DNA of 39,158 nucleotides from Candidatus Staskawiczbacteria bacterium RIFOXYB1_FULL_37_44 (GTDB lineage: Bacteria > Patescibacteriota > Minisyncoccia > Minisyncoccales > Staskawiczbacteraceae): positions 1-39,158 of the forward strand of contig MHPJ01000017.1 in NCBI GenBank assembly GCA_001822065.1, written 5' to 3'. This document shows, piece by piece, positions 17,148-20,684 of the stretch (the stretch's first letter is position 1; each line of letters begins with the position of its first letter). The notes beneath the pieces are model-generated. The model had not been told where the DNA came from, did not search any database, and saw nothing but the letters and a program-made list of their open reading frames with translations. The position numbers and the translations under genes are program-made.

Positions 17148-17792
17148 ATGAGTAATTGCCGCGATCCGGAAGAAATCAGCCAGATTTACCAGGCAATCAT
17201 CGCAGGCCAGAAGCTGGTGGAAGCCAGCCCAAGCGATGAGGAGTTGCTTGAGGACTGGGTAAAGTTTTACCAAGACGTTTTCCAGCTCAAGCTGACCTTC
17301 AATGGCGCACTCATTGTTCCGGCAAGAAAACCGGGCTTTGACCGGTTGCTGGTGCTCGCTAAAGGAATGACTCCGCAACGTTTGTACGACAAATGTGACG
17401 AGCTATTTCCTTCATGGAAGTACACCGACAGCAATTTGGATGAAGTAATTAAGTCCGACCGCACTGCCAAAAACGGCCATTATGCCGTATGGGTACGCAA
17501 CCGTCAGGAGGCTGATGAAGAAAATTGGAATTTCTCGGCGGACCAGTTGAAGAGACTCGGAACGCCAGAGATCACCCTTGAAGAACGCGAAGTTTACGAG
17601 TTGAAATTCTTCAAGGAAACCGACGATCATATGGACAAGTCCAATCGGACCCTTTGCCCCGGCTCTCGCCACACGCTCGGCAATGTCCCGAGCGCGGACT
17701 GGGGCGGCGGCGGGTTCGGGGTCGATTGGCACAGCCCCGGTAGTCACTGTTGCCGTCTGCGTTCCCGCTCCGTCGTTTCCTTGCCTGCGTAG
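17148..17792 (+). CDS. DGR target protein with C-terminal variable region
   Basis: A 214-residue protein of a type common in CPR genomes. The N-terminal part is conserved and non-variable ('FDRLLVLAKGMTPQRLYDKC', 'YAVWVRNRQEADEEN', 'LEEREVYELKFF'). The C-terminal 45 residues form a probable C-type-lectin/FGE-like variable domain, starting 'LCPGSRHTLGNVPSADW' and ending 'CCRLRSRSVVSLPA'. Codons from 17661 to about 17776 are the variable repeat, whose differences from the template fall on template adenines. Variable positions are enriched for AAC/AAT/TAC-type template codons, the classic DGR layout for ligand-contacting residues. The gene has much higher G+C than its neighbours, its own promoter and a clear ribosome-binding site. 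The ligand is unknown. No signal peptide is visible. Confidence 0.9.
   Translation: MSNCRDPEEISQIYQAIIAGQKLVEASPSDEELLEDWVKFYQDVFQLKLTFNGALIVPARKPGFDRLLVLAKGMTPQRLYDKCDELFPSWKYTDSNLDEVIKSDRTAKNGHYAVWVRNRQEADEENWNFSADQLKRLGTPEITLEEREVYELKFFKETDDHMDKSNRTLCPGSRHTLGNVPSADWGGGGFGVDWHSPGSHCCRLRSRSVVSLPA
17661..17776 (+). repeat. DGR variable repeat (VR)
   Basis: It aligns without gaps to the template at 18031-18146 (constant offset 370). Of 33 template adenines, 22 are changed here (16 to G, 3 to C, 3 to T). Of 83 non-adenine positions, one differs (template T18100, here C). The 17 identical bases CTGCGTTCCCGCTCCG plus the preceding T (17756-17772) form a GC-rich 3' end like an initiation-of-mutagenic-homing site. 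Just beyond it VR and TR diverge, as expected for IMH versus IMH*. Confidence 0.95.
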
Positions 17793-17824
17793 GTCGCCAT
17801 CAGCGACCGAAGCAGGCATTATGG

Positions 17825-17861
17825 GCCATCTTGCAAACTTGATTTGCAAGATGGCTGTTTT
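17825..17861 (+). terminator. Hairpin downstream of VR
   Basis: GCCATCTTGCAAA CTTGA TTTGCAAGATGGC is a perfect 13-bp stem followed by TGTTTTT. It ends the target transcript. It may also serve as the cruciform-type hairpin that some DGRs need downstream of VR. The half-site GCCATCTTGC recurs at 17887-17896. Confidence 0.75.
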
Positions 17862-17871
17862 TATGTATAAT
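17844..17871 (+). promoter_or_regulatory. Candidate promoter of the TR RNA
   Basis: TTGCAA (17844-17849) and TATAAT (17866-17871) are separated by 16 nt. The -35 lies in the right arm of the preceding hairpin. The predicted start near 17878 is upstream of the structured leader and the template repeat. Confidence 0.45.
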
Positions 17872-18030
17872 AATTCTGTGGCAGGAGCCATCTTGCCACA
17901 AAAGGAAACTGCTTGCCTAATTCTAACGAATTTTTAAATTCGGAAAACTGCTCCGCGACGGACGGAGAAAAACTCAGATAATTTTGTTAAAAAATTATCG
18001 GTGACATGGACGGCATTAGGCAAAAAAACG

Positions 18031-18146
18031 GGCTCTCGCAACACGAACGGCAATGTCCCGAGCGCAAACTGGAACGACGGCAAGTTCAAGGTCAATTGGT
18101 ACAACCCCGATAATCACAATTACCATCTGCGTTCCCGCTCCGAAGT
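18031..18146 (+). repeat. DGR template repeat (TR)
   Basis: This is the invariant template copied by the reverse transcriptase. It is rich in AAC, AAT, TAC and GAC codons in the VR frame, where it would read 'GSRNTNGNVPSANWNDGKF' and onwards to 'HLRSRSEVSA' and a TAG at 18154-18156. It lies downstream of the target gene and upstream of the RT gene. Confidence 0.95.
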
Positions 18147-18156
18147 CTCTGCATAG

Positions 18157-18183
18157 AAAGGAGTTTTTAAAAACTCCTTTTGT
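18157..18183 (+). terminator. Terminator of the TR RNA
   Basis: AAAGGAGTTTTT AAAAACTCCTTT is a perfect 24-bp palindrome followed by TG and T-rich sequence. It separates the template RNA from the RT start 11 nt later. Confidence 0.75.
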
Positions 18184-18193
18184 GTTTAAATTT

Positions 18194-19245
18194 ATGAATA
18201 GTCAAAATATAGAACAGTCTGGGGGGGGGGGCTTAATGGGCAAGATTTATTTAATAAAATTATTTCTCTTGATAATTTGTTTTTGGCGTGGAGAGAATTT
18301 AAATGCGGTAAAACAAAAAAGATTGATGTAATAGAATTCCAGAAAAATTTAAAGAATAATATTTTTAATTTGCACAATGAACTTAAAAATAAAACTTATG
18401 AACATTCAGATTATTTTTCTTTTTATGTTAAAGACCCAAAACTAAGATTAATTAATAAGGCTTGCGTAAAGGATAGAATTTTACACCGCGCAATTTTTAG
18501 AGTTTTGTACCCTATTTTTGATAAAACATTTATTTTTGATTCATATTCATGCAGAATAAACAAAGGCATTCACAGAGCTGTTAATAGATTAAATGACTTT
18601 GCCAGAAAAATCAGCAAGAATAATACAAAAGCTTGCTATGTTCTAAAGTGCGATGTCAGAAAGTTTTTTGATTCAATTGATCAAAATATTTTAATAAATT
18701 TAATCAAGAAAAAAATAAAAGACGAAAACGTAATTTGGTTGATAAATAAAGTTGTTAGAAGTTTTCCAAAAGGACTTCCGCTCGGCAACATAACGAGCCA
18801 GTTATTTGCGAATGTTTATTTAAACGAATTAGACCAATTTATCAAACATAAACTGAAAATAAAATATTATATTAGATATTGCGATGATTTTGTAATTCTA
18901 TCTAATAATAAAAATTATTTAGAAAATTTAATTATTGAAATAAATGATTTTTTGAAAGTAGAGTTGAGATTATTTTTGCATCCAAATAAAATAGAAATCA
19001 GAAAATTTAACCAGGGAATAGACTTTTTAGGATATGTGAGTTTTCCCCATTTTAGAATTTTGCGAAAAAAGACAAAAAAGAGAATGCTTAAAAAAGCTGA
19101 AAAAAGTTACAACATCGCGACGTTAATTTCTTTCTTAGGTTTGTTGAAACATTGTAATTCATTTGAGCTTACGATAAAATTACTTAAAACATTTTTTAAA
19201 ATAACTAAAATTAATTTTAAATTAACAAAGAAAAAATATATTTAA
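18194..19245 (+). CDS. DGR reverse transcriptase, frame split at a G11 tract
   Basis: A group-II-intron-like DGR reverse transcriptase. The conserved frame runs from 18202 (no ATG or GTG before the first candidate TTG at 18277) and encodes 'LFNKIISLDNLFLAWREF', 'KNKTYEHSDYFSFYVKDPK', 'DRILHRAIFRVLYPIF', 'VLKCDVRKFFDSID', the DGR-type 'PLGNITSQLFANVYLNELD', and the catalytic 'YCDD' (TGCGATGAT at 18880-18888). The only good ATG (18194, 'MNSQNIEQSG') is in another frame and reaches the catalytic frame only if the 11-G run at 18221-18231 had 9 or 12 Gs. Alternatives are initiation at TTG 18277 (which would remove a conserved motif), slippage, phase variation or an assembly error. No avd-like accessory gene is visible. 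Confidence 0.9.
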
Positions 19246-19254
19246 ATAAAAACT

Positions 19255-19872
19255 ATGGAAAAATATAATTTGCCAAAGTTGGCATACGAATATGACGCAT
19301 TAGAGCCGTATATGTCAAAAGAAGTTTTGACTTTGCATCACGATAAACATCATGCAGGTTATGTAAGCGCCGCAAATGCTTTGCTGGAAAAAATTGACAA
19401 TGCCAGAAAATCTGGAGAAATTTTAGATTTTAAATCTGTTTTAAAATCTTTGTCATTTAATGTTGCCGGGCATATTTTGCATGAAATTTTTTGGAAAGTT
19501 ATGGCTCCTCCCGCCTCCGCTAAAAGCTCCGGCGTGGCGAAGCCCGCGGGTAAACTTGCTGAAGCTATAAATAAAGAATTTGGGAGCTTTGAGAGATTTA
19601 AAACAGAGTTTTCTGAAACAGCAAAATCTGTTGAGGGATCTGGTTGGGCGATATTAGCTTTTCACAAAGAACACGGTGAAAATGGAGCGCTTTCAATAAT
19701 TCAGGTTGAAAAACACAATGTAAATTTTTATCCCGAGCAAACAATTTTACTGTGTTTGGATGTGTGGGAGCACGCTTATTATTTGGATTATAAAAACGAC
19801 AGGGCAAAATTTGTAGAAAACTGGTGGAATATTATGAATTGGCAAGAAGTTGAAAAAAGGTTTGGCAAGTAG
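19255..19872 (+). CDS. sodA: Superoxide dismutase, Fe/Mn family
   Basis: A 205-residue enzyme that converts superoxide to peroxide and oxygen. Metal ligands are visible: the first His of 'LHHDKHHAGYV' (His28), the His of 'GHILHEIFW', and Asp and His of 'CLDVWEHAYYLDY'. Residues about 85-98 ('PPASAKSSGVAKPA') form an extra loop encoded by a GC-rich insert at 19506-19551, placed where family members have a short loop. Fe versus Mn preference cannot be decided. It begins 9 nt after the RT stop, but is probably not functionally linked to the DGR. Confidence 0.9.
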   Translation: MEKYNLPKLAYEYDALEPYMSKEVLTLHHDKHHAGYVSAANALLEKIDNARKSGEILDFKSVLKSLSFNVAGHILHEIFWKVMAPPASAKSSGVAKPAGKLAEAINKEFGSFERFKTEFSETAKSVEGSGWAILAFHKEHGENGALSIIQVEKHNVNFYPEQTILLCLDVWEHAYYLDYKNDRAKFVENWWNIMNWQEVEKRFGK

Positions 19873-20071: not shown

Positions 20072-20089
20072 TTGTTAGTAAAATAAAAT
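20061..20089 (+). promoter_or_regulatory. Promoter of the PaaX/Cas2-like gene
   Basis: TTGACA (20061-20066) and TAAAAT (20084-20089) are separated by 17 nt. The predicted start is near 20096. The -10 box overlaps the first in-frame ATG (20088), so translation more likely begins at ATG 20097 (leaderless) or 20106. Confidence 0.65.
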
Positions 20090-20096
20090 GAAGGAA

Positions 20097-20684
20097 ATGA
20101 AGGATATGAAAATAAGGTATGGAGAAATTACAAAAGATGTTTTGCTTGTATTTGCTACAGCCGGTGTTTTTACTATAGCAGCAACGTCTCCCTATTTTTT
20201 AATAAATTTAACGAGAGCAATCATAAGAGACGGGGGATATAACAAAAAATATCGGAATTTAAAAGAAAAGGTTTTAGCGAGATCTTTAACGGGTTTGAAT
20301 AAAAATAAAATTATAATATTTAAAGAATCGGAAGGAAAATTTAGCGTAAAATTAACCGAAAAAGGAAAAAAAGTTGCTAGAGAAATTTTATTTGATAACA
20401 TGGAGGTTGAAAAACAAAAAATTTGGGATAAGAAGTGGCGGATTATTATATTTGATATTCCAGAAAGAAAGGGCAGACAGGCGAGAAATGCTATGAGGTG
20501 GAAGTTGCAAAAAATGGGCTTTTTTCAGCTTCAAAAGAGTGTTTGGGTTTTCCCTTATCCGTGCGAAAAAGAAGTACAGCTTATCAGTGAAGTTTTTAAG
20601 ATAAATCCGTTTGTAAATATCGTTACGGCGGAAAAAATATATAATGACAATAATTTAATGGAACATTTCAGGCTATCTGTTTAG
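20097..20684 (+). CDS. PaaX/Cas2-like regulator, stand-alone
   Basis: A protein of about 195 residues with a hydrophobic N-terminal segment ('VLLVFATAGVFTIAATSPYFLINL'), a winged-helix-like middle ('KIIIFKESEGKFSVKLTEKG') and a C-terminal Cas2/PaaX ferredoxin-like domain ('WDKKWRIIIFDIPERKGRQA', 'FFQLQKSVWVFPYPCEKEV'). Such CPR proteins are often labelled Cas2, but there is no CRISPR array or cas gene in the window, so a transcriptional regulator is more likely. Matching dyads on both sides of the gene fit autoregulation. The start is uncertain: ATGs lie at 20088, 20097 and 20106, and the promoter position disfavours the first. Confidence 0.75.
   Translation: MKDMKIRYGEITKDVLLVFATAGVFTIAATSPYFLINLTRAIIRDGGYNKKYRNLKEKVLARSLTGLNKNKIIIFKESEGKFSVKLTEKGKKVAREILFDNMEVEKQKIWDKKWRIIIFDIPERKGRQARNAMRWKLQKMGFFQLQKSVWVFPYPCEKEVQLISEVFKINPFVNIVTAEKIYNDNNLMEHFRLSV

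Follow-up and report, generated by a model that had tools for sequence, protein, structure and literature searches.

The DNA analysed here is a 39,158-nt stretch from Candidatus Staskawiczbacteria, hereafter called the window. It carries a diversity-generating retroelement (DGR), and the sequence leading into its reverse transcriptase (RT) gene raises the question of how the mutagenic activity of such an element might be turned on and off. The answer that we favour, at a probability of roughly 0.8, is that the DGRs of Patescibacteria are phase-variable by strand slippage, such that mutagenic activity is switched, and that the window represents the OFF state. This proposal was derived from comparative sequence analysis.

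The window carries a genuine DGR

The variable repeat (VR) and template repeat (TR) of the window (Table 1) align without gaps over 116 nt. Among the template A nucleotides, 22 of 33 differ in the VR (16 A-to-G, three A-to-C and three A-to-T), versus one of the 83 non-A positions (T-to-C at offset 69), and the contrast is highly significant (Fisher p = 1.4e-14). These values reproduce exactly those of the initial annotation, and a separate repeat search recovers the same pair (119 nt, 80% identity). In the 836-kb genome of 26 contigs, the TR matches itself and one VR, and nothing else. The two repeats share the ending CTGCGTTCCCGCTCC, a candidate for the invariant GC-rich 3′ end (IMH/IMH*) of DGRs. 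The VR lies at the 3′ end of the 214-aa ORF, as had been proposed. The RT that had been called downstream as DGR-type is likewise borne out: its core (18277-19242) is intact, with a match to RVT_1 (4e-24) and the motifs YCDD and GLPLGN-x-TSQ. A profile built from this RT and 16 relatives finds its best PDB match in 8ub7 (1.7e-55), with group II intron RTs ranking lower. We take this entry to be the BPP-1 DGR RT complex.

The anatomy and the adenine-specific differences are direct observations, and the window element is a genuine DGR. The differences also uphold the view that the system has been active since its VR and TR last matched. As a DGR, the element is ordinary: its VR-TR-RT layout recurs in dozens of relatives, and a DGR clade confined to Patescibacteria has been published. 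The taxonomic spread of this clade (DGR clade 2; Roux et al. 2021, PMC8144416) is matched by the relatives of the window element, which may thus be a member.

The target had been described as lectin-like, a designation that no search supports. A C-type lectin fold is common, but not strict, in DGR targets, and the target protein of the window has no match in Pfam, NCBIfam, PHROG or PDB searches. Its AlphaFold2 model is poor (pLDDT 49) and not good enough for a structure search. The gene family of the target is kept in relatives.

Several hairpins accompany the repeats. Folds with z < -2 follow the VR in 24% of relatives, and the stem-loop at this position in the window is therefore not a general feature. 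Strong folds in the 60 nt 3′ of the TR are general (about 100 loci, median z -3.5, 71% with z < -2). These post-TR hairpins could act as a terminator of the TR RNA or as a spacer structure that recruits the RT. An Rfam search returned a single match, far under the gathering score of its family. Directly after the RT is a gene for an Fe/Mn superoxide dismutase (19255-19872), encoded here in a small Patescibacterial genome, and a PaaX-like protein with a Cas2-like domain (PF20803) is encoded at 20088-20684.

Table 1. Features of the DGR in the window, with coordinates given as positions of the whole stretch.
Feature	Position	Strand	Basis or remark
Target gene, 214 aa	17148..17792	+	ATG at 17148, stop ends at 17792; VR at 3′ end
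VR (variable repeat)	17661..17776	+	Alignment to TR and repeat search
GC-rich stem-loop just 3′ of VR, across target stop codon	17782..17818	+	Fold z = -5.1
Likely target-gene terminator, 14-bp hairpin followed by TGTTTTT	17824..17856	+	Fold and sequence
TR (template repeat)	18031..18146	+	Alignment to VR and repeat search
Hairpin just 3′ of TR, AAAGGAGTTTTTAAAAACTCCTTT	18157..18180	+	Sequence and fold
Probable RT start codon (ATG), 27 nt ahead of tract	18194..18196	+	Similar ON-phase N-termini in relatives
11-G tract, proposed slippage switch	18221..18231	+	Sequence; frames
DGR-type RT body, open up to stop	18232..19245	+	ORF, profile, motifs

An 11-G tract separates the RT from its probable start codon

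A working RT had been assumed in the initial annotation, which overlooked the 11-G run. As assembled, however, the RT has no in-frame ATG. The sole nearby ATG (18194) is shifted by the 11-G tract to one base out of phase, and it is in the RT frame when the tract has 9 or 12 G nucleotides. When the RT frame is followed 5′ of the tract, a stop codon (18199-18201) is met before any start codon. No clear Shine-Dalgarno site is present directly 5′ of ATG 18194. The best reading of these frames is that the window RT is OFF in the assembly at 11 G, a length that, like every homopolymer length from a single metagenome-assembled genome (MAG), may err by one.

Mechanical ORF calling begins the RT at TTG 18277 and thereby drops the conserved sequence DLFNKIISLDN. 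Since start codons are predictions, this TTG or a non-canonical start could yield a shortened RT. The locus might then be an ordinary DGR whose G run is incidental and whose RT starts at TTG 18277 or at another site after the tract. Such a view accommodates the intact RT body of the window, as well as the presence of an RT ATG after the tract in 52 of the 77 related loci that carry poly-C tracts and the accessory gene avd, where read-through is unnecessary. Against it, the clade of the window has no RT ATG 3′ of the tract, and the RT N-termini that result in the ON phase are alike (MNSQNIEQSGGGG.. in the window, MDTQNQKLIGGG.. in L033, MNQRSFKPFGGG.. in L054 and MHQRNIEAVGGGG.. in L057). An incidental run also leaves unexplained the position and purity of the tract, as well as the one-third ON rate of avd and the (CT)n substitutes described below, and we consider it unlikely. 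We also considered that ATG 18194 is a mere remnant of an antisense avd gene. This was rejected because the ON-phase N-termini are alike even in L007 and L033, which lack avd.

The cassette of the window itself is without avd: no bAvd match was found, the TR is separated from the tract by 74 nt, and the tract stays with the RT. Because its own avd is absent, the window RT would either depend on Avd supplied in trans or work without it. Two other DGRs in the same genome carry Avd copies. The first (on contig C8) consists of a VR, a TR, an antisense avd that is out of frame at G10, and an RT. The second (on contig C2) is of another type, with a VR, a TR, a same-strand bAvd gene and a distant RT, and has no tract.

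Simple repeats mark the avd start in most related elements

RTs of this kind are found in 28 of 58 genomes from the family and order of the window, and 80 further loci were taken from named MAGs across Patescibacteria. The source groups include Wildermuth-, Moran-, Nealson-, Nomura-, Yanofsky-, Staskawicz-, Levy-, Davies-, Woese-, Uhr- and Peregrinibacteria, among others. Nearly all loci with enough flanking sequence have the VR-TR-RT arrangement with A-specific differences and zero to two others. The initial annotation had asked for a check on relatives, and the outcome agrees with its view, as about 100 related loci display A-specific VR/TR differences. Most relatives have a bAvd gene in antisense orientation between the TR and the RT, and its identity (PF22296) was obtained for all five examples tested by reference.

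About 80% of the related elements tested carry a simple repeat at the corresponding junction, and the non-Patescibacterial DGRs taken as outgroup have no tract. The repeat is located 3 to 45 nt ahead of the conserved avd core, and homopolymeric examples read as poly-C on the avd strand. Among non-redundant avd loci, the 5′ end of the gene carries poly-C of 7-13 nucleotides in 77 cases, (CT)6-16 in seven, (GA)10 in one and (CA)6 in one, whereas 19 loci have no such repeat. Outside the junction, the same loci (583 kb) contain two G/C runs of 8 or more nucleotides and zero dinucleotide repeats of 6 or more units. In the genome of the window, runs of 8 or more G nucleotides occur in three places, two of which are DGR junctions (that of the window and that of the DGR on C8). 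Thus, the repeat has features of a contingency locus: it is pure and short, rare elsewhere, and positioned where a gene begins.

The frames of the 86 repeat-bearing avd genes are also direct observations. When an ATG is sought within 75 nt, 30 genes are ON (ATG in frame), 54 are OFF, and two have no ATG in any phase. The ON fraction (30 of 84) fits the one-third expected of random phase (p = 0.64). In contrast, all 19 repeat-free avd genes have an ATG in frame (Fisher p = 8e-8 versus repeat-bearing genes). Under a wider rule, in which the 75 nt upstream are counted from the tract, an ATG is available in at least one phase for 86 of 86 genes and in exactly one phase for 74, compared with about 32 of 86 genes with an ATG in any phase in shuffled sequence; part of this conservation may stem from the RT protein, because the zone overlaps the antisense of the RT N-terminus. 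An ATG, GTG or TTG between the tract and the avd core is found in 5 of 86 genes.

Both frame states therefore occur in relatives, with gene bodies intact: 53 of the 54 OFF avd bodies are open for at least 107 codons. Non-A positions of the VR and TR differ at 20 of 3509 positions in OFF loci and at 7 of 1859 in ON loci. That OFF loci retain this non-A identity suggests that the OFF state is recent and that the machinery worked recently. These observations bear on whether the frameshifts are homopolymer errors of assembly or sequencing, or signs of decaying pseudogenes. The genomes are indeed MAGs, and a few loci (L050 and L019) have extra stop codons. However, an OFF proportion of 63% is well beyond any plausible error rate, dinucleotide tracts are not error-prone, OFF bodies are open, and VR/TR non-A fidelity is kept. 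Error or decay is accordingly a very improbable source of the pattern.

The tract might instead act as a nucleic acid element of the DGR RNA or DNA, for example in priming, G-quadruplex formation or template switching, with the reading frames as by-products. In the clade of the window, the tract invariably consists of G on the strand of the RT, and its site between the TR and the RT is where the spacer RNA of BPP-1 acts (PMC12875486). Such a role is difficult to reconcile with the unrelated (CT)n substitutes, with the absence of a tract from 19 loci that have both avd and RT, and with a TR-to-tract distance that ranges between about 75 and about 400 nt across loci. It also does not account for an ATG phase structure well above that of shuffled sequences, and we give it very little weight.

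Repeat length differs between near relatives

Two loci that are 92% identical over 1.5 kb (L084 and L099) are distinguished at the junction by a single indel of 4 nt, which makes the former (CT)6 and ON and the latter (CT)8 and OFF. Their alignment has no other gaps than an end effect and, inside the TR, two paired gaps of one base each. The two records are titled Giovannonibacteria and Sungbacteria, as might result from a recent transfer or from mis-named MAGs. A second pair comprises the nearest relatives of the window on the RT tree (L004 and L005), which are sisters with G9 (ON) and G10 (OFF), respectively, and which have further indels beside the tract. Across this tree, the ON and OFF states require 23 changes, compared with a mean of 23.1 after shuffling, and are thus scattered. 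Tract type, by contrast, requires 13 changes versus 25 in shuffled data (0 of 300 shuffles were as low), indicating that the type of tract is inherited.

The main live rival to replication slippage is programmed slippage by RNA polymerase or the ribosome, in which case products in a mixture of frames would constantly arise, and the length of the DNA tract would be of minor importance. Homopolymer tracts can support slippage of this kind, and the OFF avd bodies remain intact. However, (CT)n, (GA)n and (CA)n tracts also occupy this site, which fits replication slippage better, and avd genes that lack a repeat are without exception in frame (19 of 19). The dinucleotide tracts in particular speak against transcriptional slippage, and we judge programmed slippage to be improbable, if worth keeping in mind.

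One tract may serve two genes

Strand slippage in DNA would act as follows. The pure simple-sequence repeat at the divergent avd/RT start would change length, and each change would move a start codon into or out of frame. The affected gene would be avd in most relatives, the RT in the window, where avd has been lost, or both. In the ON phase, the RT together with Avd would copy the TR into mutagenized cDNA that overwrites the VR, whereas in the OFF phase the present VR would be retained and inherited. Three parts of this scheme are the ones that we infer, namely length change within a population, use of the named ATGs, and a lack of homing in the OFF phase. When the BPP-1 DGR was reconstituted in E. 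coli, inactivation of either Avd or RT abolished retrohoming (PMC12875486). Because both proteins are needed there, a frameshift in either would be predicted to halt the rewriting of the VR until slippage in the opposite direction set it going again.

Of the poly-C loci with avd, 25 have no RT ATG after the tract, and there the RT must read through it, as in the window. Where such a read-through RT and its avd each have a single ON phase, the two phases agree in 12 of 13 cases, which does not amount to two independent confirmations because agreement follows by construction if the real ATGs are codon-aligned on opposite strands. Where an ATG of the RT follows the tract, the phases agree in 3 of 14. 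We lean slightly towards the broader view that a single tract between antiparallel, codon-aligned starts switches Avd and RT together, and that in Patescibacteria broadly the DGRs act as stochastic, heritable mutators, in which bursts of diversification give way to frozen phases.

Other poly-G runs in the genus

In the genus of the window, G9-11 runs also separate TTGACA-like from TATAAT-like boxes ahead of ORFs for secreted-protein-like products. These promoter-spacer runs (L215-L217, L219, L223, L228 and L229, from genomes G002, G006, G007 and G011) precede several ORFs that appear to encode signal peptides. Like known promoter poly-G contingency loci, they would alter promoter spacing and not reading frame, and promoter-type phase variation at these loci is probable. 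Phase variation through poly-G is probably widespread in the genus, as judged from 20 observed sites rather than from a survey.

RT genes of the type found in the second additional DGR (L049, on C2) carry a G12 run near their 3′ end in two congeners (L028, at about 1615-1626; L029, at about 2614-2626). The run adjoins a secreted-protein-like gene, and the two loci differ in the reading frame downstream of it. We considered poly-G plus TTAGAGG as a shared mobile motif and rejected it, because the homologous RT in the genome of the window encodes GLKGKF at this place and is tract-free. For the same reason, the motif-like likeness of the L028 and L029 sites is probably due to coding sequence.

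Comparison with known systems

If the proposal is correct, Patescibacteria possess a heritable and reversible mutator switch, in effect a phase-variable mutator of one gene. Many annotated avd and RT genes of Patescibacteria would then be mis-started or only seemingly broken. Natural control of DGR activity is stated as open in the literature, and a slippage tract would supply one such control. A 2026 study names DGR regulation in the wild as a frontier (PMC12875486), and Roux et al. (2021) attribute low turnover in cellular clades to RT control or selection, leaving the choice undecided (PMC8144416). The main text of the latter does not mention avd, an accessory or a frameshift (PMC8144416). 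Our search of open-licence full-text literature found no report of this tract in DGRs, which is weak evidence of novelty. In three articles that were followed up for phase variation (PMC12135933, PMC10053308 and PMC12386605), the term occurs in references or in relation to hosts.

The BPP-1 DGR (mtd-avd-TR-brt) has the same kind of RT, adenine-specific transfer from TR to VR, and a VR at the 3′ end of its target gene. Its accessory belongs to the bAvd family, as do those of the window's relatives. The hairpin after the VR of the window occupies the position of the BPP-1 retrohoming hairpin, which is required for efficient retrohoming (PMC3240598). In BPP-1, however, avd lies on the same strand and before the TR, whereas in Patescibacteria it is antisense between the TR and the RT, with the slippage tract at its start. 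The cassette of the window further differs from BPP-1 in being without avd, and Avd, while present in most DGRs, is not strictly required.

Simple-sequence contingency loci underlie phase variation by slipped-strand mispairing in Neisseria, Haemophilus and Campylobacter. The Patescibacterial junctions resemble such loci in having, at a gene's 5′ end, a pure tract of poly-C/G or dinucleotide repeats, in an ON:OFF ratio of about 1:2, and in tract lengths that differ between near-identical copies. Unlike those loci, the gene that would be switched here is the mutator itself and not a surface antigen, and a single tract can act on two genes in antiparallel orientation.
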